DNA of 64,000 bases, from assembly GCA_918026815.1 (NCBI GenBank), contig CAKJVC010000150.1, positions 992,001 to 1,056,000 on the forward strand. Reading direction: 5' to 3'. The notes beneath the pieces were generated by a model. That model worked only from the letters and a program-made list of their open reading frames with translations. It was not told the origin of the DNA and did no database searches. Source of the DNA: Chalara sp. BL73. Taxonomy: Eukaryota > Ascomycota > Leotiomycetes > Helotiales. Shown here one piece after another: positions 4,702-63,186 of this stretch. Every line of letters starts with the position of its first letter. The first letter of the stretch is position 1. The position numbers and the translations under genes are program-made.

Positions 4702-6156
4702 TCAAGCTTTCTTAAGCAGGTGGAAGCCTGTTCTTACGATTCGACCGCCAACCAGCAGGGCCGCTCCGCAAATCATAGTTGAGCCTCCGAACATCTGTGC
4801 GTGCAAATAGCCACCATGGTTTGCTTGAATGACTGCACCAGCAATCGGTGGACCTGTAAGGCAACCGATACTGATAACCGAGAAGACCATGCCAATCCTA
4901 ATACCTAATTTGCTAAGATCGGGTGTCAAGCTACCTAGAGCAGGTGGGAATAGACTTTGAACGCCAGCTCCGAAGAAACCATAGATAATTACAATAGCCC
5001 ATAGCGCGTTGATTGTATGGGCAGCGGCCCAGCAGTATACGAGCAGGCCCGATGAAATCACGAACAGAATGAGAGTGTTCACAGGACCGAGCCACCTGTC
5101 CGCGAGGATTGCAGGAACAATGCGACCTGGGATACCGATGGCGTTCATGACCAGTAACAGATTGAGAGAATCTGTTGGGGACATGCCAATAACATCTTTC
5201 GCGAAAGTGGCAACCTTGATGAAAGGAAATGTCAGTATCATATACGAAAACGTGGAGTGACTACTTTGGCTTACATAATAGTAGGCAAAGTAGACCCCCA
5301 TGAAAGTAAGGAACATGCCGGAGCTGAAAAGGACGTAAGATGCTTCCTTAAAGGCAGCAAACTCGATGAATGGGCCTGTAACACGTGGAGGGATACGTGT
5401 GCGAGCGAGACTTAGAATGATGACACCGTTGGCGAGAATGACGAAGCACATGACTCTCAGAGTCCATGGGAAACCAATCTTATAAAGTAGCTGCCTCGCG
5501 ATGGTGGTAAAGACGATGCCACCCGTGACAAAGCCGTTTGCAATACCAGATATTGCCAAGGCTCGCTTCTTCAGAAAGTACGTCGATATTAACGTGACGG
5601 TAGGACAGAACACTAGGCCATCACCTAAGCCAACACAGATGCCTTGGGCAAGGAACAACTGCCAGTATTGAGTAGCAAAGGAAGTTGCAAACACACCGAC
5701 TAGCTGCAATGTCAAGCCTGCAATCAAGACATGGCGGTAATATCCAGCATCTGTTGCGCGACCGGAGAAGGTGCTAATGAAGTATATGAGAAATACTTGA
5801 ACCGAGCCAATCCAGGAGATATCTGAGGGTGACCTATCCAAGGTAGTGGCATAATAGGCTTGGAAAACCCCAAAAGCACTAATATATCCCCAAGAATTGA
5901 ACACCACCAAGTGGCCAACCAGAACTTGGAGCCATGCTCTGGTGCCTCCGTCTGGAGGTGGCCCTACAGCATCGGCCTGATGGGATCGCCGAAAATATGC
6001 TGGAAGGCGCTTCTCTAGGGCAGTAGCCGAGGGCTTTTCGCTAGCATCCGCAGGAAAATCTGCGATGTCGGAAGTGGAAGTATGTTCAGGCACATTTGCT
6101 GCACCGCTTCCCATCGACGGGGTGGATGATGCCGGCTTGCTTTGGCCATCCGTCAT
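4702..6156 (-). CDS. MFS transporter, monocarboxylate (SLC16/MCH)-like
   Basis: A plasma-membrane major-facilitator protein with a hydrophilic N-terminus of about 65 residues and about 12 membrane segments. PPDGGTRAWLQVLVGHL at the first membrane segment is the hallmark of fungal monocarboxylate-permease-like (MCH) proteins; GRIVPAILADR is the half-2 loop signature. The reading frame is open throughout at 484 residues. A 60-nt in-frame intron at 5215-5274 (GTAAGC...AAG, with branch-like CTGAC) is very likely: removing it joins YFAYYYV to ATFAKDVIGMS, which restores the usual family sequence and gives 464 residues. The start lies just before a Ser/Pro-rich tail, as in relatives. Substrate is unknown; many members are orphan transporters. 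It stands alone between relics. Confidence 0.9.
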   Translation of the reverse strand: MTDGQSKPASSTPSMGSGAANVPEHTSTSDIADFPADASEKPSATALEKRLPAYFRRSHQADAVGPPPDGGTRAWLQVLVGHLVVFNSWGYISAFGVFQAYYATTLDRSPSDISWIGSVQVFLIYFISTFSGRATDAGYYRHVLIAGLTLQLVGVFATSFATQYWQLFLAQGICVGLGDGLVFCPTVTLISTYFLKKRALAISGIANGFVTGGIVFTTIARQLLYKIGFPWTLRVMCFVILANGVIILSLARTRIPPRVTGPFIEFAAFKEASYVLFSSGMFLTFMGVYFAYYYVSQSSHSTFSYMILTFPFIKVATFAKDVIGMSPTDSLNLLLVMNAIGIPGRIVPAILADRWLGPVNTLILFVISSGLLVYCWAAAHTINALWAIVIIYGFFGAGVQSLFPPALGSLTPDLSKLGIRIGMVFSVISIGCLTGPPIAGAVIQANHGGYLHAQMFGGSTMICGAALLVGGRIVRTGFHLLKKA

Positions 6157-6759
6157 GATGCCTTTACGTTTGCTTTTGATACCCGGAGAAACTTTGACTT
6201 CTACGTGGAGTACTCTACAAGGCGCGTGTTACTTCCACTCGTACTTGTTTTCTGGGGTGAGGAATACTTACCACGTGGTATTTCGAGTGCTTTCTGTCAA
6301 ATCGACAAAGCTCTGGTTCAGCCAAGATCAAAGGATAGTGAACCTTTATAAACATTTGGGCGGACTGTTTCAGATCTGAGAGAAGAAATGGGAAGGTACG
6401 CTTAATGGGGCGGTCCAGTTATCAGCCGACTAGTGTATGCCGAGAGAGAATGAACGAGATCTGTGGTAGGCACCTCTCAAACGGCGTATGGGTATGTCAT
6501 GTCCAGAAATTCTTCGAATTTCTTCAGCACGGCTGGCCCATTAAGCTAGTCAATTTCAAGCTCCTCTTATAACAAGTGAGGAATATATCTCCAGACTTCA
6601 AATTAGTCCTGCCAATGCTAGACCTTTGCTAGTCAAATCCGACCGGATCACGTTGCATTTTGGAAAGTGCAAAAACAGCACCCTGTTTAACCGCCTAGAA
6701 GGCACTATAAATAGAACGCGATCAACGTATAGATGGAACATGAAGATGGGAGAAATGCA
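6157..6759. other. Upstream region of the MFS gene; no gene
   Basis: Probably holds the MFS promoter and 5' UTR (CACGTGG-type boxes near 6205 and 6270). The rest shows no coding support. Confidence 0.4.
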
Positions 6760-6976
6760 GGGCAGTGTCCGCAATAGTATTTGCATAATACTATACAGTG
6801 TAAGCAAGACCAGTACAAGGCCAGTGTTTGTCTTAATAAAGTAATTTTGACAGCAACAAATGTTGCATTGCTGTGCTACTTATCTCAATGCTACAGCAAC
6901 TATTGCACACGGGCCTTTCACTGGCCTTTGCTTACGTTGCATAGTATTCTGCAAATATTATTGCGAACACTACCCC
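6760..6976. repeat. Long imperfect hairpin (about 70-bp arms)
   Basis: The arm at 6760-6830 pairs with the arm at 6904-6976. Shared cores include CGCAATA, TATTTGCA, AATACTAT, GTAAGCAA and GGCCAGTG, read in the same order on opposite strands. The loop is about 73 nt and contains a smaller ACAGCAA/TTGCTGT stem. It could be a degraded MITE or a transcribed hairpin. No target duplication was found. Confidence 0.7.
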
Positions 6977-7553
6977 ACGAATTCTTTCAGGAAAATAGGC
7001 AAGGTACTCACTTCTCAACGTAGATGGTATCCGTCTAACGTCCCCTTCGGACATGTTCTGCTGACGGTGTGCCCATCCCAATATGTGCAAGGTACATTGT
7101 TTCTCATGGTAAGCCTGTTTCTATACCTGCGCTCTTGGTTAGTAGTATTAGACTAGTGCTTATGTAGCCAACTACGATATCTCCGGATTAATATTCGAGG
7201 AATCTGTTGCCTTGAAGCCTTGTCCTCTGCACTATGTATTTGTATAAGAAGCATCAAGATGCCGATAGATTTGCGATCTTTTTCCATTGGTGGAATTCTT
7301 TACAAGGTTCATTTAGCCCGTTGGAGGATTCATGTGGGGTGGTGCCGGGTAGACCCGCAACGAATCGCGCCATTTTCTCGCAGATGGATGTTTACAAGTC
7401 AGTCAACCAATGGAGGATGAGTTCAATCGTGTCATACAGTATTGTACTTACCGAAAGATAGAAGCCAAGATGAACTTAAATTACGTAGGGGACCATCGTC
7501 TAAACATGAATCCAGATGAGGAAAGTATTTGTTCCCCCGCCCCCGGCTCGGTA
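6977..7553. other. No gene seen
   Basis: Short open frames only; nothing recognised. Confidence 0.4.
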
Positions 7554-9071
7554 CAACTACTTCCCCCCTTGTTAAAGGTTAAATGTAATGTCTATATTTG
7601 TGGATCAGCCAAGGCCACCACTTCCAGGGGGGTTCTAACCAATAGTTCAGGGGACGTATAAGTTCACCGCTTCCGATTTAAAACACAAAAGAATATTCTT
7701 CCTAATTAAATTCTAGTATTTGGTACGGCCACCACTAGCTTGTATCATAGCCCAATGTCTGTTATACGAAATATTATAAATCTTTTAAATGAAAGCTTCC
7801 GAAATCGTATTCCATACTTTTCAGACTATATTTCTTAATCGGTTAAGTAGCACTTTAGAAGCATCATAATAAGCTTAGAAATAGTGATTTTGTACATATG
7901 TTATCACCTATGTTTAAACGTGTTTTATACGGTTTAAAAAAATAGAATAAGGAAGCTATTATATCTATAGATAGTTCTGTCGATATAAGTTATCTTTAGT
8001 CATTCTAAACTAGAGGCAAAAGGTGCCATCTTGCTGCCACCAAAGTTCTATTCCTTGTTGTCGATAAAGATTCAAACCATGGCTTTATATTCCTGAGAAT
8101 GTACTTGTTGAATTTCTCACTATTTCCAGTACTTTGTTCCTGCTCCCAAAACACTGTATAGCCCTCTTTTCATTACAAATAGTCCTATATAACACCCAGG
8201 CCGGTCATTTAAGATATTTGTGTTGCATGCAACCTTCAGCGTATCGATCTAAATCCACTCCTTTTAAAGTGCCTTCAACTGAACAAGTAATACACAGTTA
8301 AGTGAAAGCACCTCCAAAAGGTCGAATCTCATCCAAAAAACGCTTGGTTTGAAGTCTTTCAACAAACAAGATTGAGCCCTGCTCTGCAAAATTAACCTTT
8401 TGCCTTTTGTATACTACATTGTCTAAGAACCCTTTTTGATTTCACAACTCGTTGACTATACCATTCGGTCTTAAAAGCGATCTTAATGGCTTTTTCCTTG
8501 TATCCAAAAAAAGCTAATTAGAGAGTGGATCGAAGGATATAGCAAAAGATATGCCGGTGTGGTGGATCCGATAGCATCCAACTAACTACCTCTTTTCTTT
8601 TCTTCTCCTTTATTATTGGCTTGCCGCAGCAACGTTCTTTTTGGAGCGTTTGCCAATGCTTTGCTAGTTGTATTTATTGTAACGTATAACCGTATCGACA
8701 GTGTATCGTGGGAGGAGAGACTCAATCAAGAGCAGGAGCTGCATTCAATATCAAATAAAGGTCCATTCTGAATATATTCGACCCGTATTACTATAAAAAC
8801 AAATCCACACTGGTCCGAATAGCTTTGTATAGTCATGGCTAAAAGGAGCAAACGAAATGTCAAAATAAGTAAGTTAAAATCGAAACAATAAGTGACCAAT
8901 TAAATAAAGCGTTTCTGCCAAATTGAAATATTTAGCGATGTTAAATTAGTAAGAATTTAGCCTGTTTTTACATCGCAGCTGTGTTTTATTAGCTAGAATC
9001 TCCCTGAAATAGTAGCCTTGGCCGATCTATAAATCCAGGCATTTAACCATTAACAAGGGGGGGAGGTGGAG
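7554..9071 (-). mobile_element. Degenerate Tc1/mariner element
   Basis: About 1.5 kb, bounded by inverted ends of about 80-90 bp: 7554-7645 and 8985-9071. Both contain C-rich tips, TTGTTAA.GGTTAAATG, GATC.GCCAAGGC and TTC.AGGG..ATTCTA-like blocks in mirrored order. TA dinucleotides lie just outside (7552-7553 and 9072-9073), as expected for Tc1/mariner insertion. Coding sequence on the minus strand is ruined (see 7713-8090). The interior is AT-rich with many C-to-T type stops, consistent with repeat-induced point mutation. The outermost 15 bp are only about two-thirds matched, so the exact tips are uncertain. Confidence 0.75.
7713..8090 (-). pseudogene. Tc1/mariner transposase remnant, C-terminal half
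   Basis: Translation with stops gives NLYRQQGIELWWQQDGT, the second catalytic-Asp block of DDE transposases (usually QQDGA..H). It continues through KDNLYR, IKHV, VQNHYF.AYYDAS, LNRLRNIV and ends WAMIQASGGRTKY followed by TAG. The 'AVI.A.GG.TKY' end is characteristic of fungal Tc1/mariner proteins. At least six in-frame stops and one frameshift are present. The N-terminal DNA-binding part should lie at 8090-8900 but is too eroded to assign. Confidence 0.75.
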
Positions 9072-9073
9072 TA

Positions 9074-10542
9074 TCCGTGGAGCATCAGGATAGTATATGC
9101 AGAGCATCGGTGTTTTATCTATCACCCTTATCCTTATTGAGCCGTCGACGTGGTTACCAACTAATATATCTTGTGATGTAACGCCTAAAGCAGACCGGCT
9201 GCGGAGGAGCTAAAACATATTTGTATTAATTGTATGGAGCCGGGTATACTACGAGTTCGACGCAGAAGCGCACCATCCGAAGCTTCGTTAATACAATGCA
9301 GCAATGCGGCGAAGTTACGACATACGATGCGTATGCCAAATATGTCCCTTTTTATCCTCAGCCCCCTACAATCTACACCTGTTTCTATATTGACACTCGC
9401 AGATAACTTATAGTAGCGAAAGCCGACGACTATTAGCGCTGCTCATGGTGCAGATTACAGTTAGTGTAACCACCCAAGATTCAGACGTCGACTTTAGCAC
9501 CGTTTCAGGAATCCGATCCTTGGGCTGTAGAGGGTATTCCCCTTTAACTGGTCCTGATCCTAGGAAGCTAAAGTCAACAGCTTTGTTGTGGCTTGCGGGG
9601 ATTAGATCTTCCCTGCCATACATCTTCCAATATCCCCTAGCTCCGAAAAGGAGCCACGCAGTCTAGCGGCAGGTGAAAATGTACCAGTGATGGCTGAGTT
9701 GTGGATGTTGCCCCCCCGCCTTTCATATTCGTAATGTGAAGTCATTATGAACTCATACCTGTAATAAAATAACCAGGGTGGCGCTCAAAGTCCGGGGAAC
9801 GCTAATCCGAACAAAGTTCCGTAATTTGTGGCTTCTCAAAGCCAGCACAGAGACACGATGCCCCGAAGCTACATGGCCGAAAATGGTTTAGTCATGATAG
9901 AAGGTGCAGCAGGAAGGCACTTCTGGTATTGATATTGATTGAGATAGAAAGACCAAGCATTCATACTTCTCATCTGTGTACCGAATTGATTTTGAACAAG
10001 TATGTTCTTCATTTGGTCATGTAAGCTGGGTACCAAGGAACACTCCTCTTCTTGCTTTCAGACAATATGTTTTCAGCTGTTTAAATCACATTGAATGGCG
10101 TTTCAGTGTTGCTGAGGCATAGCCGTGATAGGAAAGCTTATTAGTTAGGTAGAAGCAATATAGTCTAAATTCAACAAGACCTACGGTAGATAGGAATCGA
10201 GGTGGGGAATTAGAAAGTAGGCGAGGCACATCTTTCTATTGAGTTGAGCATAAAGCTCCTAAGCTATGAGAATAACGGTGCTAAGCTATGGTATGAGAGT
10301 AAAGATTTTGGTAGGGACTGTATCATTTCTTAAGGGTTCCAGGAACCCTCTGGCGTTCCTCCATGATGAATATTTGTCCTCAGTCCAAGTTTCGGAAATC
10401 TGTTGCCAAGGTAACGTGTTAGCGAAGTAAACTCGGATATTGAAGAGAAACAAGCAAGAGAAAAATCGAAAGGATGAAGTTACCGACATTGGAGTAGACT
10501 CCCACCTCTAGGGCAGGTCAAAATGGGGCATATGTTGTGTGT
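9074..10542. other. No supported gene
   Basis: Moderate-GC sequence between the dead transposon and the repeat-precursor gene. A 71-73 residue frame is open on both strands near 9408-9666 with no recognisable family. It probably includes the precursor's 3' UTR up to 10542. Confidence 0.4.
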
Positions 10543-10962
10543 TCATGCGCCAACAGCTCCAACTTCACCGACTTCACCAACTGCCCCAACGTCACCAACC
10601 TCTCCTACAGCGCCGACTTGACCGACAGCACGCCTGTAGCCTACTTGGCCGACCTCACCAACTGCTCCAACATCACCAACCTCTCCTACATCACGCTTGT
10701 AGCCTACTTGGCCGACCTCACCAACTGCTCCAACATCGCCAACCTCTCCTACATCACGCTTGTAGCCTACTTGGCCGACCTCACCAACTGCTCCAACATC
10801 ACCAACCTCTCCTACATCACGCTTATAGCCAACTTGGCCTACTTCACCGACTGCTCCAACATCACCAACTTCTCCTACAGCGCCGACTTCGCCAACTGCG
10901 CCAAGCGGCGCAGCCGAGACGACGAGGATGTTGAAAATGAGTGCAAGAGTAGCGAGCTTCAT
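10543..10962 (-). CDS. Secreted kexin-processed VGx-repeat precursor (KEP/RiPP-like)
   Basis: 139 residues. Residues 1-18 form a signal peptide (MKLATLALIFNILVVSA, then AP). The rest is almost wholly a three-residue rhythm V-G-x with x = E, D, A or Q. Four 21-residue units end in GYKR, GYKR, GYKR and GYRR (basic pairs at 47-48, 68-69, 89-90 and 110-111), ideal kexin (Kex2) sites. Cutting would release DVGEVGDVGAVGEVGQVGY three times, a longer first peptide and a 28-residue tail without Tyr. Each repeat has a single Tyr just before the basic pair. Signal peptide plus identical KR-bounded cores is the architecture of fungal KEPs, which include dikaritin precursors (UstA type) and structural repellents. 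I chose the start at 10962: an upstream in-frame ATG at 11124 lies beyond the TATA box at 11107-11113 and would bury the signal peptide. Product and fate are inferred. Confidence 0.8.
   Translation of the reverse strand: MKLATLALIFNILVVSAAPLGAVGEVGAVGEVGDVGAVGEVGQVGYKRDVGEVGDVGAVGEVGQVGYKRDVGEVGDVGAVGEVGQVGYKRDVGEVGDVGAVGEVGQVGYRRAVGQVGAVGEVGDVGAVGEVGEVGAVGA
10630..10881 (-). repeat. 63-bp tandem repeat, 4 units (inside precursor gene)
   Basis: Units 10819-10881, 10756-10818, 10693-10755 and 10630-10692 each encode 21 residues ending in a basic pair. Units 2 to 4 are almost identical in DNA, so recent unequal exchange or selection keeps them alike; copy number is likely to vary between strains. 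Confidence 0.85.
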
Positions 10963-11106
10963 ATTGAAAAGTAAGTTGGGGGCTGGGGTCAGAAAGACAA
11001 ATATAAATGGATATGAAGATTTATGACTGTACTGGTAGTTAAGCTGTTGAACTATGGAGCTGCGTTTGTTGATGAAGATAAATATGACCCGGGAGATGGT
11101 TGAGGG

Positions 11107-11113
11107 ATTTATA
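11107..11113 (-). promoter_or_regulatory. Probable TATA box of the repeat precursor
   Basis: TATAAAT on the minus strand, about 145 bp upstream of the chosen ATG. A start site about 30 bp downstream would leave a 5' leader of roughly 115 nt. Sequence match only. Confidence 0.5.
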
Positions 11114-11124
11114 GACTTCTTCAC

Positions 11125-11819
11125 TGGTGGTCTCTATCTGCGAAGTGATGAGATATCTGGTTGAGGTTGCACCATCGCCACCGAGGAAAGGGGCGTTTTT
11201 TCCAAGTGCGAGCAATCTATTTTGCGTGACGTAAGCCCAAGCAGCAGCTTATGGTCATGCAAATAGGCGTGTGCATTGTTAGGTGTGATTGCGAGACGGA
11301 GGGTGAGCCTGATATTGATGTCGTCTTGGTTCTGATTTATGAGATGCTATCTTTCTCCGTAGAATTGCATTAGCATATGCATTGCCAGGTTTCATTCCGA
11401 CCAGCCACAGCGGCCTTTCTATTCCTCCGTCTGGGCCTACCTCCTACGAAATTCCATCTTGTTGCCTCTTTCGGTGGTGTATACTGCAACCGAGGGTTGT
11501 AATACAGGCTACGAATCATTAAAGCAAACTACATCAAGTGATAGAATGCTTCAAATTCACCGCCATTTCTCCCGCGCGTTGTGTCCCGGCTTGATATGCG
11601 GAGAAGAGAGTGTTGTTCGTGCGGTTCCTTGATCTGCCTCAATCTATTTTTCTCCACTTCCCTAACAGAGTGGTCGTCAGCAAGTGAGAGATAAGGCTAG
11701 CTGAGAGAAGCCTATAACCAGAAATTGCCATCCTCCCCAGATTTCTTTGACCACAACCTCTCTTCTACCTAAACTCCCCAGGAGCAAAGTGCCGGACTTC
11801 AAATTCATAATCCTCTCAG
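11125..11819. other. Shared upstream region of divergent gene pair
   Basis: Lies between the minus-strand precursor and the plus-strand HxxHC membrane protein. It should hold both promoters. No coding support and no distinct operator recognised. Confidence 0.5.
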
Positions 11820-11887
11820 GTATGTGGGCGAGATATGTAGAGTTTTCCTATCCTAAGATACTGAAGATTGACTGACTTGATATACAG
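11820..11887 (+). other. Likely 5'-UTR intron
   Basis: CAG/GTATGT donor, CTGAC branch-like sequence, and ATACAG acceptor 12 nt before the ATG at 11900. Removing it gives a continuous leader for the next gene. Confidence 0.5.
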
Positions 11888-11899
11888 AGATTCTTCAAT

Positions 11900-12646
11900 A
11901 TGTTCACTGCCCGCCGCTCTTCAGAGTCCCAGACCACGCTGGGAAAGAAGGGGGAACGTGAGCTCAACAGTGGCGCATATGATGTGTTAGCTGATGACTC
12001 TGACCTTGGGCTTCTCAGCGAGCAACTTAAGCTTCGCCGGAAAGCTTCACGTTGGCCAAGAGCCCTCACCAGCCTCTCGGTTGCCTTCGGTCTAGCCTGC
12101 CTGTTCATAGTATACCTCTCATTTGAACTCTCTAAAGTCAATTCTGCTCATAGCAGTCATCCTACCATACACCGGACCGGCAAGGAGCTTGGGGACTGCG
12201 GAAAGACCATTCCTGAGGCTCGTGCCGCCGGGTGTCACTTCGACCCTATGAGCTGGCTATGGATTCCTAAGGCGTGTTGGAACCCGCACCAAGACCTGAT
12301 TGATAGCTGGAAAGCCAGTACAGATTGGCATTTCTATGACGACGTGGGTATGAGACCTGAAAATGAGGTGTCAGTCGAGTCTACATATAACGGCGACTAT
12401 CCCGTGCTATTCACGCCATACAAGTACCACAAAATCCATTGCAGCTACATGTGGAGGAAGACACAAGCAATCCTCACTGAGCGGCTACCAATGGATAGCA
12501 ACACACTTAGCAATCGCCATATGAATCATTGTCAGATGGTTCTCCTGAACGAATTCTTCCACCAGGACGTCAACTGTACTGAGTCTGAAACTCAGATCTG
12601 TCCAATCCGATTGACGCAAGAGTACACGACTTGCGGGTATTTCTGA
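11900..12646 (+). CDS. UstYa/DUF3328-like type II membrane protein (two HxxHC motifs)
   Basis: 248 residues, single exon. Cytosolic N-terminus, one membrane helix at about 52-75, then a lumenal Cys-rich domain: CGKTIPEARAAGCHFDPMSW (100-119), C126, then HKIHC (177-181) and HMNHC (207-211). Two HxxHC motifs about 25-30 residues apart on a type II membrane protein are the defining feature of UstYa-family (DUF3328) enzymes, which oxidise and cyclise fungal ribosomal peptides such as ustiloxins. The extra 'CG.T..EAR..GC.FD.MS' block marks a widespread fungal subgroup whose activity I do not know to be established. It is transcribed away from the KR-repeat precursor, about 0.9 kb between coding starts, which suggests co-function. 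It could instead be an unrelated membrane protein with convergent motifs. Confidence 0.7.
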   Translation: MFTARRSSESQTTLGKKGERELNSGAYDVLADDSDLGLLSEQLKLRRKASRWPRALTSLSVAFGLACLFIVYLSFELSKVNSAHSSHPTIHRTGKELGDCGKTIPEARAAGCHFDPMSWLWIPKACWNPHQDLIDSWKASTDWHFYDDVGMRPENEVSVESTYNGDYPVLFTPYKYHKIHCSYMWRKTQAILTERLPMDSNTLSNRHMNHCQMVLLNEFFHQDVNCTESETQICPIRLTQEYTTCGYF

Positions 12647-32716: not shown

Positions 32717-35700
32717 GGGTCCCGGTACACCTACCCCCGGGGGTAGGAATAAGTTTTCTGACTAAGCACAACGCGTACCCCCCAACCAGGCCTGTAAATA
32801 CAGCGTGACCAGCCTGTACGCACGCGATTACGAGCCTGTAGGGTGTTTAACGCATTTGTAAAGACCTGTAACCGTACTTTGTTAAAAAAAAAATGCAGTA
32901 GCATAAGTATACAAGCAAAAAACAAAGTTATTCAAGCTTTGGTTGTACAGGCTTGTTGCGTTGTGCTTACAGGCTGGTCGCAGTGTGTTTTAGGGCTGTA
33001 AAATTGCCCGCAAACACGACTACAAGCCTGTAAATGTAACAGCCAGGGCCGGTTAGGGACGGATATCACAACAGCTACAGGCATACAACTACAGCAGCTA
33101 CAGGCATACAGCTACAGCACAGTTGAAAGGATATAAGGAACAGCTAGAGTTTTCAGAAGGAAAGCAAGCTTGAGTTTATTTGCTAGACGGACAAGCATAC
33201 TTTTGATATTAATACATTACTATTTCTATTCTATTGCAGTCACGTGTTTTTACTTGTTATATTGCAATTTTTTCTGTTGCTTTTTATTTGTTACAGTAAA
33301 GCAACTAAAACTTTAGTGATTACTATTTTTTAGTTGTAAAATAACCTGTAAAATAACCTGTGAACTTTAAATTATATAACTTTACATAATATATTTCTTT
33401 TGATTTTTAGCAACATCGTTCGTAATTGCTTTTTATACGTCGTTTACACTCCGTAAGTTATACTTTTTCTCGTTTACTTCAAAGTCCGATTCTATTTGTT
33501 TTTCAGTTTGGTTTTCAAGTTTTTTTTTATTATTTAGCTATATCGTAATTTCTTTAAGTGTCTAGTTAGTTTTGCTAGCTATAATATTACCCTGAAAATT
33601 CCGGCGCTTTTTTGGCATAAGCTATAACTGTTCCTGTAAGATTTTGAGCCGTAAAGTTTTCTATTTCCGGGCTTTACGGTAGTTTGCAGACTGTACACTT
33701 AAGTGGGCTTTTAGCTATGCTTTTTTTTCAGCTATATAGTTTTGTATTAAAACTTCCGGGCGGTTTGGTGCTAGTTTTTTTGGTAATTCTACAATTATAA
33801 AATTAAGTTCCGGTTCTAGTTCTAGTTCTGGTTTTAGCTTTGATTCCGGTTCCGGTTCCGGTAGTACTAGCTCGATTTTTTGATTATACTGCTCGTAAAA
33901 GTTTTTTTGCGAGCTAAGTATATTTCCTAGTATATTTTCCGGAATCCGGAAAGTCGGTATTAAGCTAGTAAACACTTTTACGGATATCTGAAAGTCCGTA
34001 ACTAGTAAAAGCGCTGGAACTGGAGCCGTATTCCGTAAAACAGCTTAAAACTGTGAAACTTCAATATTTTAAAGTATTTGGCTTTGTATAGCAATTGAAG
34101 CTTGAAGCTTAATTGGGCAATTTCGACTTGTACGTGAATAGCTTTTGTTATAACATGCAAAACAAACTGAAGGCTGTTTTTTTGGTTGTAATTTTTCGAC
34201 GGATAAAATACGGCTTGTATTTCGGTTTGTAATAGCGAAGCGGCCTGGTTTTTTAACTCGTAAAGAGTCAAGAAGTAGTTGTAAAGTGTTTTCGCAGTTC
34301 CAATACTAGTAGTTATAGAAATCTGCAGGAATAAAGCCGGTAGTATTTTTTTTTATGTCACAAGTATATGCACAAAGTAATCTTATTGTTCGTGTAAAAG
34401 CTTTAGTACACGGCTTTAACGGACGAAACACAGTTTTAATATAGCGTTAAACAAGCCGAAGTGCATACTAAGTAATAACTCCAAAAACACTACGGTATAG
34501 TTTACGGTCGAGATTTAAAAGTATAGAGTTTCGCTCGCTACTTGTAAAAGTCCGAATCGAAATAACTTAGTTAATAACTGCATTCTCGATATTTAACTAA
34601 GTTGAGTATAAGTCTTTTTTAGTTTTTTTTCTTTTAAAGTACTGTTTAAGATATACATAAACACTTTCGCTTTTACGGGTCGAATTTGAGTTAGTTATAA
34701 CTTATAAATAGTAATTACAAGCTCGAATATATTTACCGAAACGTAGTTTAAGTTTTAAAATGCATATAAGAACTCGTCCAAGCCGTAACTAAACGTTGCT
34801 TTTGGCCGTTTTTTAACTACTTATTACGGAGATAATTAATACACTTTTGGTACTTTAAAACAAAATACTTAGTGTGTAGTTCTAACCAACGTTTTTTATA
34901 TTGGTCGACTGTCTGAGCGTAAATAATACTTTGCTATAAAGTATTAAAAGCCGGCTAATTATCGCTTAGAATACTTTTATAGTAAACTAGTACACGCTGA
35001 TTTACATGCTAAACACAAAGCATAATAAAAATATTCGGAAATACAGCTTTAAATGCATATTTTACAGCATTATTTTTATTTATAAGTATTACTTTCGGGC
35101 TTATTTTAAGCTGTTGAAATTGTTGAAATGCCTAAATATAGTCAACTGTAGATTCGCCAGGAAAAAAACAAAATTCAATTAAGAATGTTTTGCTAGAACT
35201 CGTAATTTTTAAATATTAAATTAAAAGTTAGAATTTAAGTTTACAGTTTATTGTTATAACGTAATCTAGCTATATAGCCTGTAAATAACCTGTAATTTAT
35301 TTACTAACTATATAAACAAGCAGCATATTAAATTTGTTTGTTTTGTAAGTACTATTAATTATAACTATGTCTTGATTTTAGTATACTAGTTGAATAGATT
35401 CTGGGTAAGCAATAAAAAGATATTCGGCCTTATTTTGGTCCGTAACTTGTATTCGGAAATGTATTTTTCGGTCTGTAAAGTGTTTAAGTAGTGCATTATT
35501 AGCTGATAGTTTATGTAATCGTTTTCGCTTAAAACTTTTGTTCAAATTGTATATATTTTAAGTTTGAAAAGTATTCGAAGTATTGTGTCGAAGAAAAGCT
35601 ATACAGTTTCGTGGTTTAATTCTTAATACTATTAACTCGCTGTAAATTACTCGGAAATATATATACTAGCATTATAAAGCTGTCGAGCTTTATTTAAGTT

Positions 35701-36337
35701 TTTTTGAGCAAGCTTACAGTGTACTGAGTGCGAAGTTGCTACAGAGCTAAAAAAGTGGTTATAAGTATTATATTGAGCTTTTTCCCGATGTCGAATCTTT
35801 TATTGTAACTTAGCTTTCTTTATTGCTTTAATCGAAAATTGACATTCTGTTTTACGAGTGTTTGTTTGTCGTTTACGGGCGCGTAACTGATTTTGCGAAT
35901 TGTTTTCTGGCGGAGGCTGTCTACTACAGTCGCATTCGTAAACTAATTTCTTCCGTAAACAGCTGCTTACTGTTTTTGATCGACTAATTCGAAACGTATA
36001 ATAATGTTGTGCTGTTTAGGCTTGTATTGATTGGTACAACTGTTTTTGAGAGTTATATATAGCTTCTGGCGGTAGTGGCATTAAAGGCTTTAGAATAGGA
36101 AGCAAGGACGGCGTTGGTGATATCAACGCTTTTGTAGAAGGAGATATCGACATTGATGATTGGCTATCCATTGTTGTAAAGTAAAAAATGAGATTGTGAA
36201 AGAGAATCAGTTAGTTTACAGGTCCGTAACACGTTCTACAGGCGTTCTACAGTTCGCGTTAAGCCTGGTTGGGGGGTACGCGTTGTGCTTAGTCAGAAAA
36301 CTTATTCCTACCCCCGGGGGTAGGTGTACCGGGACCC
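32717..36337 (-). mobile_element. Dead Mutator-like element (MULE) with intact ends
   Basis: 3,621 bp. Terminal inverted repeats 32717-32791 and 36263-36337 appear identical over 75 bp and begin GGGTCCCGGTACACC. Flanks are the 9-bp duplication CTACGTAAT (32708-32716 and 36338-36346), the MULE hallmark. Next to both ends are many short CCTGTA/TACAGG words, likely transposase-binding subterminal repeats. The interior is very AT-rich and its transposase is ruined (33433-36171). Ends intact and core dead suggests it could still be moved in trans by a related enzyme; that is inference. Confidence 0.9.
33433..36171 (-). pseudogene. RIP-mutated MULE transposase
   Basis: Begins MDSQSSMSISPSTKAL and aligns by eye with the intact protein at 46798-49841 along most of its length. 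Examples (stop = *): QA*TAQHYYTFRI vs QAWAAQHYYAFRI; FFPGESTVDYI*AFQQFQ vs FLPGETQQDFVWAFRCFQ; CV*HVNQRV vs CIWHVNQCV; NYRKARK*KTLR vs EYRKARKWSTPR; PNRPEVLIQNYIAEKKA* vs PDRPEVLMQAYLAEKAAW. Nearly every tryptophan codon of the relative is a stop here, the mark of G-to-A changes on the coding strand as made by repeat-induced point mutation. Numerous other stops; no product expected. Confidence 0.9.
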
Positions 36338-46613: not shown

Positions 46614-46797
46614 ACGACATTGGGTTTCAATACGTTTACCACCCTGGTAGGTTTATAATTTTGGCTTAGGTAAGCTCTCAAAACCTACCACCCCCCTGCC
46701 ACCCCACCAAAAATGATCGCGCGTCGCGTTCTGCATCCATTTGCACTGTAACTTTGCCTGCAATTGATGCATCACCAGACGCAATTACATTACAACA

Positions 46798-49700
46798 ATG
46801 GATATTCGACTTTCACTGTCGCCGCAGCCTTTGCCAATATCGCAATTGCCCACTACACCTTCTATATCTATGCCACTGCCCCCGGAAGCTACGTACAGCT
46901 CTAAAGAAGAGCTATATGCTTCAATTCAAGCTTGGGCAGCACAGCACTATTATGCTTTTCGTATAGAGCGGTCTACAAAAAAAGGCAACAGTGCACTTAC
47001 TAGGATCTTATATAGTTGTGACCGTGCTGGGCCAGCACCGCCCGAAAACCATTCGCAAAATAGCTTACAAGACCGCAAACGCCGTACAGCTACTCGAAAA
47101 ACAGGCTGTCAGTTCTCAATAATAGCCCGTGAACAAATAGATACACAATGGGAGCTTCGCTATAGGCCTGGCAAAGAATACAGTACACATAATCACCCCC
47201 CAAGTCAATCAATTAGCTCTCATCCAGCACACCGAAAACTAGCACAAGCAGAAATAAATCAGGCTAAATCTTTACACAATGCAGGTAAGTTTAATACTAT
47301 ATAATACTTTTAAAAACAAAAGGTTAATATATTTGTAGGAATTAAGCCAGGCCAAGCAATTACGTACCTTCGCGAAATGACTACTATTCCACTTCAACCG
47401 TATGATATATACAACTTAAATGCTTCTTTTAAAAGAGAGCAAAAGCATGGACTTTCCGCAAATGACGCTTTAATTCAACATTTGAAGAACAATAATACTC
47501 ACTTCAAAATCAATATTACGCATCAAAATCAAACTCGCCATCTTTTTATTGCATATCCACAATCTATTCAGCTTGCACAAGCTAATCAAGATGTTGTATT
47601 AGTTGATAATACATATAAAACTAATAAGTTTGATATGCCACTTCTTCATATGATTGGTAAGTAAAGCTTTATTGTGTCGTACGATTATATAGCTAAAATT
47701 TTACAGGTATTACAAGCTCGGGAATGACTTTTTCAATTGGTTTTTGCTTTCTTCCGGGCGAAACACAACAAGACTTTGTATGGGCATTTCGTTGTTTCCA
47801 AGAGCTTGGAATCAAGCCTGCAGTTGTAGTTATGGACGGTGACCAAGCTCAAAAAAATGCTTCAGAAGAAGTGTTTCCGTACGCTCCTACACCACTTTGT
47901 ATTTGGCACGTTAATCAATGTGTTTTTGCCAAGTGTAAAAAAATAGTTGGGGACGAAAACTGGCCCGCATTTGAAGCTGCTTGGCGTACAGTTATTCAAG
48001 CACGTACAATTGAGGAATTTGATAAGCACTGGCTTGAATTTCAAATTCAATACTCAACACCTAAAACTCAGCAATGTGTAACGTACTTGCAAAATGAGTG
48101 GCTAAAAAAAGGTCAAAAAGAGCGTCTTGTTGAAGCTTGGACAAGCCAATACTTACACTTTGGAATACGAGTTACTTCTCGAGCTGAAGGTGCTCACGCT
48201 TATATTAAGCGTTACCTTGGAGGCAAAAAAAGTAAAGGAGACTTATATTCGTCATGGCTACATATTGAAGCAGCAGTAATTAATCAAATTACAGCTGTAT
48301 TTAACCGTACAACTATACAACAAGACCGTATACCTATAGATATAGACAAAAAGCTATTTCAGGGTTGTTTAGGAGTTATTACTTGGCATGCATTACGACT
48401 TGTACAACGACATTTAAAGCTTGTTTCTTTGCCTTTACAGCCTTGCACAAGTAGCTTTACACGGTCAATGGGCTTACCTTGTGCACATATATGTGATATA
48501 AAAAAGTCTACAGGTGGCCTTATTCCGTCAGACTTTCACGAGCACTGGTACTGGGACCGTCGAAGTACTTTACAGCCACTTCTTGACCCACTGCGAGCCG
48601 GTAAACAAAATACAGCTAACTTGCGAATAGCTCGTACGGGCCGTATTCTTTCTACGAGTGAAAAGCTACTCGTAAAGCAGCCTCCTAAATGTTCAGCATG
48701 CCATAGGAAAGGGCATACAATGAACAGCTCTAACTGTCCAATAAAGCTACAAGCATCAATTGCCAAACAAAATCAAATTCTTCTTGATATAGACATAGAA
48801 GCAAGGCAGCCACTAGCGCTTACAGCGCCTACAGCGCCCAACATGCCTGTAGCATCCCCTGTGCTTACAGCGCCTACAGCGTCCACCATGCCTGTAGCAT
48901 CCCCTATGCTTACAGCGCTTACAGCGTCGACTATGCCTGTGGCATCTCCTGTCTTTACAGCGCTTACAGCGTCCAACATGCCTGTAGCATCGTCTGTGCT
49001 TACAGCGCTTACAGCGTCCACCATGCCTGTAGCATCCCCTGTGCTTACAGCGCTTACAGCGTCCACCATGCCTGTAGCATCCCCTGTGCTTACAGAGCAT
49101 ACAGCGTCCACCATGCCTGTAGCATCTCCTGTCCTTACAGCGCTTACAGCATCCACCATGCCTGTGGCATCTCCTGTCTTTACAGCGCCTACAGCATCCA
49201 CCATGCCTGTGGCATCTCCTGTCTTTACAGAGCCTACAGCGTCGACTATGCCTGTGGCATCTCCTGTGCTTACAGAGCTTACAGAATCTACGATAACTGT
49301 GGCATTTCCTGTGCTTACAGAGCCTACAGAATCCATGATAACTGTAGCGTTTCCCGTACTTGCAGAGCCTATAGAGTCCACTATAATTGTAGCTTCTCCT
49401 GTATTTACAGCGTCTACAGCGTCTACAGTGTCTACTGTGCTTAAACAGCTATCCCCAGACAGGCCAGAGGTTTTAATGCAAGCCTATTTAGCTGAAAAAG
49501 CAGCCTGGCTAGCTCAGCATTCTACTGTACGACTAACAGAGTACCGCAAGGCCAGGAAATGGTCTACTCCGCGACCAAAAGTCTTAAAAGAACAACTATT
49601 TTACATGCCTAAAGAACGACGCGACCTTATGGGTAATATTATAGCAAATCAGGCTAATTGGACTTCTGAAGAAATTATAGTATGGCTAGATAATGAAGAA

Positions 49701-49841
49701 AAGAAAGAAGAGGACGAGTATAATAAGCTAGAATCGGAGTTTGTAAGAAATAGCAACAAGCACACGGAAAACAAGCGTAAAGAAGTATGGGGTAGAATTG
49801 AGGAAGAGCATGCACGAGATTCGGAGCGGTACATTCTATAA
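46798..49841 (+). CDS. MULE transposase
   Basis: Exons 46798-47284, 47339-47656 and 47707-49841; introns of 54 and 50 nt (GTAAGT donors) keep frame, 979 residues. The N-terminus has a FAR1/WRKY-like DNA-binding region (QAWAAQHYYAFRIERS...CDRAG...TGCQFSI...HNHPPS). Catalytic MULE core: VLVDNTYKTN (D252), VVMDGDQAQ (D312/D314), CIWHVNQC and VTSRAEGAHAYIKRY (E429). A SWIM-like CTSSFTRSMGLPCAHIC and a zinc knuckle CSACHRKGHTMNSSNC (about 595) follow. Then comes a 15-residue tandem repeat and a C-terminus (PDRPEVLMQAYLAEKAAW...KEERD-type charged tail) shared with the dead element at 32717-36337. All expected catalytic residues are present, so it could be active. Confidence 0.93.
48819..49440 (+). 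repeat. 45-bp tandem repeat inside transposase
   Basis: About 13-14 units encoding LTALTASTMPVASPV-like 15-mers (residues about 638-845). Early units are nearly identical and later ones drift (TITVAFPV, TIIVASPV), which indicates expansion from the 5' side. The equivalent region of the dead MULE has a short PEPEPESK-type Pro/Glu stretch instead, so the repeat is specific to this lineage. A long antisense frame here is only a by-product. Confidence 0.85.
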
Positions 49842-52913: not shown

Positions 52914-55900
52914 TTATTCCGAGGCCTGATTTTCTGAGGATGGGGATGGCTCTGTTGCCTCTGAAGTAAGGACGGATTTATCAATCCCGCACAGCCGTAA
53001 AAATTCGCCAAAGCTTGGCAACAGTTTGCCAGCAGCCAACAATGCGTCCGCATTTGTTCCCAACTCATCGCTCAACATATTCTTTGTAGAGTCTCCCTCG
53101 CCGTTGTCTTGTAGATTCTGTAGTATGAGTGGCCGTATGCATTTTTGTCCAGTCTTGCTTCGAAAATGATCCGCCAGTTTATCGGCCCGCCAAAAGGCAG
53201 ACGTGCAACCCCACGTAGACCCATCCTTCAAATCCCCAAGGCAAATGAATTTCTTATCCCCATGAACTTGCTCGTGTCGGTTACAGTCACTCCTGCGTGT
53301 GAAACTGTGCCCACATACACTACACACAAAGCCCTTGATGCCGGCATGTGCTCGTATATGAGACTTCAAGTTGTGGTTTGCAGTATACTTCTTAAGACAT
53401 ATGTGGCATTGAAAAATCGCTGGATTCTTCGTTGTGCTGGGCTTCTGTGGTTTCGGCGGTTTTGGGAATTGTGCCAGTTCTCTGTCCTCAGACACGTCAA
53501 TCCCGTGCCAGTCAAAGACATGTTTCCTCAGCTCATCTTTCGTAGGACAACCAAAAAGCTTCACCTGGCACCCATCGAAGACACAAAGGAAGGGGCGGTC
53601 ATGCCTATCGACATGATACTTCCTCTGACTAGCGCTGCTAAATCCCTGATGATAGTAATGGCAGCTGATACGGGGGCACTTGAACCAATTACTGCCATAA
53701 AATTGATCAAGTTTCTGTGCGTCGGCCTCCGGAAGAGAACGAGAGACTCGCCGACGATGCATTTCCTCAAGAACGGATCTAATTTTGTCTGTAACTTGCC
53801 ATAGATCCAGGGCTTCGTCTTGACTTGGGCGCTGACAATTAGGACCAAGTTGCTTCCTGGACCATTCGACAGCTTGGGCGATTTCATCATATAGTTCCGA
53901 GGCTTTCATGGGAGATAGATTGGTCTGGACTTTTTTGGAAATCGCTAGAGTTTTAGACGTTGAGGCTGAATGCAAAGGGATGAATGCCTCTAGAGTTTCT
54001 AGCAAGGGGATTAGTTTGTATCCTGATTCCGGCTTCGGAATTCCAGTCTCCAGGTGTATGGCCCAGCACGCTGACGCGTAGTCATAAAATGCGTGGATAC
54101 CACTTATAAGATCAGTCGCAATGTTATCGTCACTAATCTCTTTGTCGACCTGGGGGAATGCAAGATAGGCGAGGCTTAACATAGATAGTGAGTAGTCTAT
54201 TTCAAGAGGTTGGACAAAATTCGTCCGAATCAGATATCTGTCTGGTCAGCTCATCATCGCCGAGGAAGGAGAAAGGCTTTGTCTCAGACTTACTCGCGAG
54301 CAGTTGCATGGATAAGCTGAACAGTCCCATCAGAATCCAGCTCGACGAGGGATCCAAAGAGTTCTTTCGGTGATGCTAAAAGCTTCTTGTCGTAATCGAT
54401 ATGCTGTTGATCCAGGTTAATAGATAAGGCTCCTTGTATCTCGCGCCATCTTAATGGTCTCTTGGCACAGACAATCCAACCAAGGACCAGGCGAAGCTGG
54501 TCGCTAATGTTACCACTTCTCAATTGGCAGATGCGGTTAAGAATCCGTTCATAACTGTGTTATAATAGTCAGTCATAATGCTAAAAAGCCCTTTTAAGGC
54601 CACCTACACTTCATCTAACTTGATCGGTAGCTTATCTGGATGGAGTTCTTCGAGTAGGGCCGATCGAGTTAGTTGAGTCTCCAGATATTTCGCCAGCACC
54701 TCCGCAAAGATAAACATGCCTGGTGGTGTAAGCATTGTATTCTCTGCAACGGGTTGGTTATCCATTTGGCCTACCTTGCGCCCTAGCAGAGATAATATTA
54801 GCAATATGGTAGTTCGAGGGCAATTCGCCGAACCTGGCTTCGAGTTTCTTATGATATACCGCAGCAAATTCTTTGAGGTCTTCTTTGTTCTCAGTAGTAA
54901 TCCTGATAGTTGGAAGATCCCTCAGTGTCTTTCCGGTAAACCCATCATCCTGGCTGACGAACAAGCATCGAATTTCTGTGATCGCTGAAAAGCTACCTAA
55001 TATATTTTTTCTTTCTTTTGGCGCGCACTCATCAAGCCCATCGATGATGAGATAAGTTCTTCCACAACTATTAAGAGTCGTCTGCAACATTTCGTTCGCG
55101 ATTTCAGCTGATGACAGAACCGTGTCGCCGCTTGTACATGCTTTTTCATCGAAATAAGGCAAAAGGTGTGGATTTTGAGAGAGAATCTGCGCTAGGATCG
55201 ATCTTGCAACAGCCAAGAATGAATTTCGTGATTCACCATCGTGCTTGCAGTAGAAGAATGCGACCATGGAACTCTGAACACGTTGTGCCTCATCTACAAT
55301 TACGGAAGCGAGTATAGTCTTGCCTTAAATGTAAGTCAGTAACTATGGCTCTTATATTGCAATAAGATTGATGAACATCATACCTGCGCCGGGAATCCCA
55401 TTCAACCAAAGCAAGGGCTCCGGACAGAAATCTGGGTTAAGCCAATCTTGGATCAGAGGGTGGTCGAGAAGCCAACGACCAGGATCTCTGCAAATTGATC
55501 TCGTGTCTCGATAAGATTCTTGTTGTCCTTTACAATCGAAATGGCGGAGCCATGTCTTAACTGTATCTTGACGAAGGGCGTTATGATCTTTCATTTGTTT
55601 CTCAAAAGCATTGGTGGTGGTTTGGCGATGATTCTGGATCGCCTCAAACTCCGTGATAGACACTCTACTCGTAATCAGCCGTCTGTAATGTTCCAGATTC
55701 CGTTCAATATAATCGATAGCAGGAGCAAAGGCTTTCCACGAGGCTTCGAAGAACTGCTTCCAGTCTGGAGTTCATTTAAACCTGACACGATTTTAGACCA
55801 GAGCTTCAGGCTACTTACGCCGTTGTTTGAAATGCGGGATAGCGTCCCTATGAAAGCAAAGGATGTCTTTGTACATCATAACTAAGACATCTCTCATATG

Positions 55901-60929: not shown

Positions 60930-63186
60930 ATGTCACTCTGGAAGACTTTATCCAATATCGCCGAGGATATCGGCGACGGGATAGAAGAGGCTGCTGTGGG
61001 CATCGGCCGAAGGATAGGAACTGTCCTAGAGGATGCTGGCCAAACACGTAAAATTCCAGATTCCGCAGTCCAGGTGACAGAATCACTTGGCGTGAGGCGA
61101 TGTTCGACCTGTGAAAATATAAGGTATCTGGACAAGATCATCAAATTCACACTTTACAAGTTATACGACTCTGGCCAGGCGGGCTGTACCTGTTGCTGGC
61201 TCTTATATTCCGGGGTATCAGCGTTGCTGAAAAACACAGCGAACTCACTTGAGCCAGTGGAGCTGAATACAAGTTATTGCGAGAAGTCGATCCTGCTCAT
61301 GTTCCCAGACAGAGCGACGATATATCCGCCTGTTGTTTGGAAAATCGAGTTTACGTTCCCTGATAGTATGGCCGTGATTTTGCTTAGTGCATTGGGGGTA
61401 TGACTGACTTGTTGCAAGATCTCCTTCTCCCAATTGCTGCATTCACCGTGCAAAAACATCCCACCGATTACTCTCATAATCAGAGCTCGAATCATGTGCT
61501 TCGTTTGGTCAAGAAATGTAACGACGAACATCGCTGTGTTAAGGACTGGCGGCCCAAGCTCCCCAAGAGAGTGATCGATGTGGGCAATACGGGTAACGGA
61601 GTGCTTCGCCTCTGCTGTTCGGATGGCGACCAGAGAAACCAGTACACTATCTTGAGCCATTGCTGGGGCGGTTCATCTCCTCTTATCACTCGTGCGGATT
61701 CGTTGGAGGAGCGAAAGAGGGGGTTTCCACTCAATGCGCTTCCAAAAACTTTTCGTGACGCTGTCGCCGTTACACGCCTATTGGGTATCCGGTACTTGTG
61801 GATTGACTCGCTTTGTATTTTACAAGAGGATCGGTATGCCCAACACCATAAATTAAGTACTCAAGCCCGAGAGTGACAACAATCTGACACTGTGCCCGCA
61901 GACAGGACTGGGAAATCGAAGCTCCCAAAATGGCTGACTACTACTCTAATGCATATATTACAATTGCAGCCTCTCGAGCCGAGAACTGTGAAACAGGATT
62001 TCTCCTTCCGACAGAAAATCGTCGAGTCGCCACTGTTCAGTGCGAGAGTGGCCAGTCACGTTTTGATGTTATTGTCCAAGAATCACACAACACAGCAGCG
62101 ACATCAGAGCTGGAAAACAAACTCTACACACGAGCGTGGGTCTTTCAAGAAATGACTGTAGCGCCGCGTGTCATATCGTACGGGGCGAAGGAGCTAGAAT
62201 GGTACTGCCGCGAACACAACTGGTGCGAGTGCTCCTACTTGGTGCCAGAGTCTTATGACCAACCCGTTCATTCCGGTCACTGGATAAAGTGCAGAGAACA
62301 GTACATGAACAGGGATTACCAAGACTGGCTTGACATGGTAACGGAATTCACTCGCCGGAATCTAACACAGCGAGGTGATCGTCTGCCCGCTATTTCGGCG
62401 CTTGCAAAACAGTTCAGTTCAAAGTTAAACGCGCCATATATGGCGGGCATCTGGAATTTAGAACCAATGGTATGGCGCGGTCTGAGATGGAAGCCTTGGA
62501 CAGTGGGCACATATCTGGCCGGCACTGAGGTACCTTCATGGTCATGGGCATCTGTAGAATGCCTCAATGGCGTTGAATATGGTCATCCCATTCCATCTGA
62601 CGGTATTGAGTACCGAGATACTGGCGTGAAGCTGCTTAAATGGGAGACATACCTCAAGAGCACTAGTTTGTTTGGCGAGGTATCAGGGGGGATTTTGAGA
62701 GTCACAGGTCCTCTTCTTCATGTGAAACTCGAGATCAAGCCAAACCCTGAATCAAACTGGAGGAGGAATACCACTTATCGGTTTTCCATGCTCTCAACTA
62801 GGCGTGCAAAGTTGAAGGGAGTAGATCATACCATCGAGAAGTGTCGGACCAACCAGTATCAAGAACTCATTGACTTTCGTCCCGACACGCCCTTGGAGCT
62901 GCATTCGATTCGTTCGTCTTCTCAACGAGGCCGATGGACATTTAAGAGGTCTTCGGATCAACCTAATGAGCACCCGAAAGCCGTCTTCGGGGAAGTTTAC
63001 TGTCTTCGCTTTATCGATCACACGATCTATGATCCGGACGAATTAAGCATTTGCATGCTCGTACTTGGATGCCTGGATGCAAGGATGCAGACTTATCAAC
63101 GAATTGGTTTCGCATACTTCAAAATGGTGGAACAAAATATTCCGTTCTTTAGAGAGGTCGATTCGCAAATATTGACTATTGTCTAG
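60930..63186 (+). CDS. HET (heterokaryon incompatibility) domain protein
   Basis: Exons 60930-61365, 61419-61833 and 61902-63186; introns of 53 and 68 nt (branch CTGAC in both) keep frame, 711 residues. The N-terminal half has a Cys motif (RRCSTCENIRYLDK...GCTCCWLL). The HET domain starts YTILSHCWGG..PLITRADSLEERKRGFPLNALPKTFRDAVAVTRLLGIRYLWIDSLCILQED and runs on through QDWEIEAPKMADYYSNAYITIAAS to LYTRAWVFQEMTVAPRVI, the canonical order. The C-terminal half is the variable region (W..VE..YSxR-type blocks absent). HET proteins trigger cell death on fusion of unlike strains; its partner is unknown. It is the third allorecognition-type gene in the last 25 kb. Confidence 0.93.

Follow-up and report, generated by a model that had tools for sequence, protein, structure and literature searches.

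The window, by which we mean the whole stretch of 64,000 nucleotides of Chalara sp. BL73 that was analysed (contig CAKJVC010000150.1, positions 992,001 to 1,056,000), carries on its minus strand an ORF of 139 amino acids plus stop (10543..10962, with the ATG at 10962 and the stop codon ending at 10543) that has the architecture of a KEP precursor built on a VGx rhythm. Its N-terminus, MKLATLALIFNILVVSAAPL, is hydrophobic, with a 9-residue mean hydropathy of up to 2.9, and approximately residues 1-18 (10909..10962) form a putative signal peptide whose cleavage, as read from sequence and hydropathy without a predictor, is plausible after VSA or SAA. It is followed by a first unit (10819..10908, residues 19-48) that ends in GY and then KR, by three 21-residue units made of DVGEVGDVGAVGEVGQVGY plus KR, KR and RR (10630..10818, residues 49-111), and by a C-terminal tail of 28 residues, AVGQVGAVGEVGDVGAVGEVGEVGAVGA (10546..10629, residues 112-139), which runs from AVGQ to AVGA and contains no Tyr. 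The 35 Val-Gly pairs keep a period of three that is interrupted only at four sites (GY-KR three times, then GY-RR), and Tandem Repeats Finder reports 63 bp repeated 4.0 times with 94% matches. The signal-peptide-like start, the Gly-Tyr plus basic pair at four sites and the VGx rhythm are all as the preliminary description had them. It had also counted four 21-residue units and, while the four GY-[KR]R sites are there, cutting would release three and not four identical 19-mers, since unit 1 is longer (28-29 aa once the signal peptide is removed) and its last 19 residues equal DVGEVGDVGAVGEVGQVGY except for the first, A for D. The 19-mer, identical in units 2-4, holds one Tyr and six Val, with a charge of about -4 at pH 7 and a computed MH+ of 1805.86 when unmodified. 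Tyr occurs in four units of the precursor, and the mature protein has at most one Pro.

Codon usage within the repeats points to a protein that is being kept. In the codons of the 35 Val-Gly pairs, none of the 140 first and second positions departs from the commonest base, whereas 39 of the 70 third positions do (Fisher p 1.7e-23); leaving out the copied units 3-4, the figures are 0/92 and 26/46 (p 6.5e-16). Units 1 and 2 show five synonymous and no non-synonymous differences over the 15 residues compared, units 2 and 3 do not differ across the compared 45 bases, and the only change that separates unit 4 from these two is that of KR to RR. Two plus-strand ORFs are also open across the repeats, but fixed first and second codon positions combined with variable third positions favour the minus-strand frame. 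Because the variation of the Val-Gly codons is confined to third positions, which is not expected of a free-running repeat, the precursor protein in this frame is kept by selection.

For its repeats, the published definition of KEPs (PMC7329392, methods section) asks for three or more in tandem, each of 8 to 100 aa and lying between KR, KK, RK or RR, and the VGx precursor shows five similar segments, four of them with a GY[KR]R end. The genome also holds one P_proprotein match, a match to the kexin P domain, on contig C63 (E 3.1e-21). Together, the published repeat criteria and the P-domain match give good support to the earlier proposal of a kexin-processed repeat precursor. Like the KEPs of PMC6339444 and PMC7329392, as these are described in the main text, the precursor has tandem units set between basic pairs, a single type of repeated motif and a start resembling a signal peptide, but its unit differs in being 19 aa of almost pure VGx. 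Alpha-type pheromones of Ascomycota are recognised by XA/XP Ste13 dipeptides after the Kex2 sites (PMC6339444), whereas three of the units here start with DVGE and the tail with AVGQ.

The precursor had been called new-looking, and it is so within reach of the genome, protein-database and literature searches. In its own genome the search returned only itself and one other match (L010, contig C86), rejected as a relative for being a microsatellite that reads (LAE)n in the matching frame. In a set of 5.8 billion proteins no relative was accepted among 7,990 scored candidates (proteins of 76-243 aa), scoring being restricted to candidates that share most words with the precursor. Searches with the precursor gave three rows at E up to 1e-5 and 59 rows, including those three, at E up to 10. 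At least eight VG are present in 28 of the 59, and in their full sequences basic pairs after three or more VG number at most two (P0004 and P0033), versus four in the precursor. P0004 and P0033 do not have the look of signal-peptide-led repeat precursors, and all 59 rows were rejected as low-complexity or collagen-like. Four strings of the precursor sequence had no occurrence in a literature text search, nor does a motif like the VGx 19-mer appear in the main-text KEP sections of PMC6339444 and PMC7329392.

The precursor lies head-to-head with a second gene, across an intergenic region of 937 bp (10963..11899) in which a TATAAA stands 151 bp before the precursor ATG. This neighbour (11900..12646, plus strand) encodes a protein of 248 aa and belongs to what we refer to as a second HxxHC family. 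Besides a predicted membrane helix, the protein carries paired HxxHC motifs (HKIHC and HMNHC), a pair that marks the copper site in UstYa/DUF3328 peptide oxidases. In the database 14 homologs were found, of which the nearest (97% identity) is a protein annotated as hypothetical in Bisporella sp. PMI_857, Bisporella being placed in Helotiales. Thirteen of the homologs were aligned, at 52-97% identity, and the paired HxxHC is invariant in all 14 aligned sequences (the window protein and the 13 homologs); the remaining one, P0018, is a fragment (164 aa) that stops short of them. The Pfam family PF11807 (UstYa/DUF3328) gave no match to the neighbour at E 0.1, and a genome-wide search found none in the window and 89 exon matches elsewhere in the genome (E up to 0.001). 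The best AlphaFold2 model reached a pLDDT of 66.8 and a pTM of 0.53, the other four models 45-55; in it a helix spans residues 54-86, which we read as the membrane helix, and each of the HxxHC motifs opens a further helix (176-194 and 205-220). Neither a fold search of the PDB with this model (best E 5.2) nor PDB sequence searches with the neighbour alignment (best E 0.8) and with one classical UstYa frame (0.59) gave a credible match. The gene that follows the neighbour, with its frame from 13227, encodes a class I aminoacyl-tRNA synthetase; on the other side of the precursor an MFS transporter frame occupies 4705-6159, and no Pfam domain was found at E 0.01 in the six frames of 6200-10500. 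Four of the neighbour's homologs lie on contigs of 16-62 kb. The protein-database searches, which covered proteins of 76-243 aa, revealed no VGx precursor accompanying the homologs; one outside that size range, or not predicted, would be missed by them.

When the genome was searched with the neighbour, it returned itself and 14 further matches at 10 other loci. We aligned 13 members, namely the window protein, 11 of the 14 matches and a frame found by its motifs (L040), leaving the matches at C14:193448, C3:337860 and C112:564614 outside. A CG, an A, two further C and both HxxHC motifs are invariant in 13/13, and both motifs are present in each of the 11 own-genome matches whose DNA was read. 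PF11807 matches only two of the 13 members when E values as high as 1 are allowed (0.059 at best), and NCBIfam has 0 families for the 13. When their profile was compared, without a negative control, with that of 10 frames that bear the motifs and come from stretches around UstYa matches, the similarity was weak, with a local probability of 51% (P 1.6e-4, 54 motif columns) and a global one of 56% (P 1.7e-5). As for location, five of the 10 other family loci lie within 5 kb of PF11807 matches, a zone that makes up 0.87% of the genome (binomial p 1.2e-8), and six lie within 10 kb (1.57% of the genome, p 3.0e-9), the background being random positions rather than random genes and near-identical loci being counted separately. 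The family therefore clusters with UstYa matches and is not randomly scattered. In the titles and abstract beginnings of the literature on HxxHC/DUF3328 we found no description of a second HxxHC family, which is no proof of novelty.

KEP-like repeat frames are present in eight of 20 stretches (195 kb) taken around classical UstYa matches, mostly the strongest ones; after merging, the genome has about 44 UstYa loci. Counting the near-identical loci L013/L021 and L014/L015 once each, these represent six distinct precursors (the other four at L023, L025, L029 and L030), and their units include EEVAAEPAASWAAA, TNIYPSVSFLGDPEAEKV, DAEPEAAPSWYYD and LATYALSDGELE. Frames in L014 and L015 that merely shadow repeats already counted were dropped; no signal peptide of their own was seen in the repeat frames of L013, L025 and L029. 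The scan reads single open frames, so that intron-split KEPs can be missed. Among the loci of the second family, 8 of 11 were scanned, the window included, and a KEP was found at three of the eight, i.e. at two of seven besides the window. One, on contig C97, has TNIYPSVSFLGDPEAEKV units, with PF11807 matches also nearby. The other, on contig C3 (972000-981999; L039:3088-8017), carries AALNAVKPDSE six times between two family members, one of which is head-to-head with the KEP in a window-like layout, the first in-frame Met codons being 1.3 kb apart; this unit is without Tyr, and there is no PF11807 match at that locus. The five other scanned loci (the C129 end, C121, C165, C132 and C84) hold no KEP, not even two-unit candidates. 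Over the remaining 63 kb or so of the window no KEP was found beyond a frame at 48816-49448 on the minus strand, which was dropped for being antisense to a MULE-type transposase ORF. Six distinct KEP-like frames in 20 stretches amount to a large RiPP-type repertoire for one fungus. The UstYa loci also include near-identical pairs (C41/C107, C86/C60 and C62/C181), two of them also with a KEP, which could be duplicated clusters or haplotype contigs.

The dikaritin precursors UstA, PhomA and AprA (asperipin-2a) share with the VGx precursor the KEP plan, a Tyr in the unit and an adjacent HxxHC gene, and asperipin-2a also shares the small gene group. Dikaritins are marked by a core whose Tyr is cross-linked to a beta-carbon. 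On the other hand, the HxxHC protein beside the VGx precursor is unseen by PF11807 and, in contrast to ustiloxin and phomopsin, there is no EDYXI core, the Tyr being preceded by Val-Gly repeats. Of the earlier suggestion of a RiPP precursor of UstA type, the RiPP role draws support from the HxxHC neighbour, whose family clusters with UstYa matches and some KEPs, whereas dikaritin membership is unsupported, since PF11807, the family that defines the class, is absent at the precursor locus and the neighbour fails the Pfam UstYa test. The C-terminal position of the Tyr is likewise confirmed, but it is less odd than it had appeared, since FYYTGY, the core of asperipin-2a, has a C-terminal Tyr as well (PMC6514808). 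The putative asperipin-2a cluster, as described in the same paper, consists of four genes and contains a single UstY homolog, which was shown to be essential, and thus one HxxHC enzyme can suffice. A tyrosinase and an S41 peptidase are not required in dikaritins, as neither is listed for the asperipin cluster there. On the precursor contig (C129) we found no tyrosinase, with 39 matches genome-wide, and near the precursor no S41 peptidase, the single genome match being on contig C82.

In CctR the HxxHC(x)nHxxHC motif binds two coppers, and its His and Cys are needed for activity (PMC12435403). UstYa/DUF3328 oxidases (UstYa, AprY, CctR) are characterised by an N-terminal membrane helix, by motifs on adjoining helices and by a homodimer with two coppers. 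The neighbour has HxxHC(x)nHxxHC in common with them, and its modest model, with one candidate membrane helix and the motifs on two helices, resembles the published description of CctR. Further invariant Cys are found in its family as well, not mapped onto the CctR cysteines. The family differs in an upstream signature of its own, CG...A...C...C, the similarity being at the level of the motifs only.

Given the repeat architecture, the selection on the protein, the head-to-head HxxHC gene and the association of its family with UstYa, we consider the use of the VGx precursor for a RiPP probable but unproven, and give a somewhat better than even chance to the full reading in which it is cut to DVGEVGDVGAVGEVGQVGY and oxidised by the HxxHC neighbour; it would then work like a dikaritin, its membership of that class being unestablished. 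We infer that the precursor is expressed and would enter the ER by its signal peptide, which signal peptidase would remove. Kex2 would cut behind the four basic pairs and a Kex1-type carboxypeptidase would trim the basic residues, yielding three copies of DVGEVGDVGAVGEVGQVGY along with two other peptides, a longer one from the N-terminus and one without Tyr from the C-terminus. The HxxHC membrane protein would oxidise the 19-mer in the Golgi lumen as a dinuclear copper oxidase of UstYa/DUF3328 type, the likeliest reactions being a cross-link from the C-terminal Tyr to the beta-carbon of a nearby Val and the hydroxylation of Val. The product would probably be a small secreted bioactive peptide. 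More tentatively, HxxHC copper oxidases of a second family, one that Pfam does not see, may act on KEP peptides, possibly without a classical UstYa and on Tyr-less cores such as that of contig C3, and may here modify a Val-Gly peptide of extremely low complexity, possibly with several Val oxidations or Tyr-Val links per repeat; we hold this broader proposal to be possible but doubtful.

The KEP peptides could instead be secreted unmodified as linear signals, the HxxHC gene being there by coincidence or for another substrate. DUF3328 genes lie near only 22% of 7878 KEPs (PMC7329392), which makes an unmodified linear peptide a real rival, and the same source names several KEP products as linear peptides. 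N-terminal pyroglutamate is the modification named for detected KEP peptides in passages of PMC9769878. The conservation of the neighbour at 52-97% identity, with no VGx precursor in the protein searches, goes in the same direction. However, chance adjacency is rare: some 0.06% of random positions fall within 1 kb of a family member, and about 0.3% do so when PF11807 matches are counted as well; the second KEP on contig C3 stands in a similar head-to-head layout, and the units begin with DV, without the Ste13 signature of alpha-type pheromones. We rate a linear signal as rather unlikely, though to be reckoned with.

A secreted structural peptide, in which period-3 Gly-X-Val strands would assemble at the hyphal surface in the manner of repellents or of elastin and collagen, appears improbable. 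Such a role would suit the strict period-3 pattern with its 35 VG pairs, and there is a precedent in Ustilago Rep1, likewise a Kex2-cut repeat precursor of secreted peptides, in that case water-repellent ones of the surface (PMC7329392). A collagen-like protein would call for a long run of Gly-X-Y, richness in Pro and a triple helix. The Pfam collagen model scores 54.8 bits (cut-off 27.2) and DPC4_N, a diatom pyrenoid motif, scores 27.8 (cut-off 27), but the best stretch of the collagen match is 2 residues long, and we take both scores as low-complexity effects. Against an assembling strand speak also the near absence of Pro in the mature protein, the mere six or so Gly-X-Val triplets that a Kex2-cut peptide keeps and the negative charge of the 19-mer, and an oxidase-like neighbour would not be expected. 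That the locus is nothing but an expanding 63-bp/9-bp repeat, open by accident and with no expressed gene, would agree with the lack of any homolog found in the genome or the protein database, yet it is very hard to reconcile with the third-position-only variation of the Val and Gly codons, which persists with the copied units removed, with the hydrophobic start and in-frame stop and with the TATA box upstream of the ATG, and we give it very little credence.

Fungal RiPP surveys lean on DUF3328/PF11807 as the marker of KEP-modifying clusters. If a conserved HxxHC family missed by Pfam works beside KEPs, with or without a classical UstYa, part of these pathways would have been overlooked. The VGx 19-mer, with its one Tyr and six Val, would be an unusually simple candidate substrate, whose modification could easily be read by mass spectrometry.

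Elsewhere in the window, FAR1-like and MULE transposase-like ORFs occupy 46768-49841 on the plus strand, the latter with a 45-bp tandem repeat of 13.5 copies (LTAPTASTMPVASPV-like units) in its C-terminal half. An AT-rich segment at 34001-36000 (GC 0.31, versus 0.40 and 0.43 in the flanking 2-kb windows) is possibly a decayed repeat. The window also encodes an NPHP3_N (NACHT-like) protein at 54761-55324 on the minus strand and a HET-domain protein at 61891-63183 on the plus strand, both of types found in fungal self/non-self recognition.
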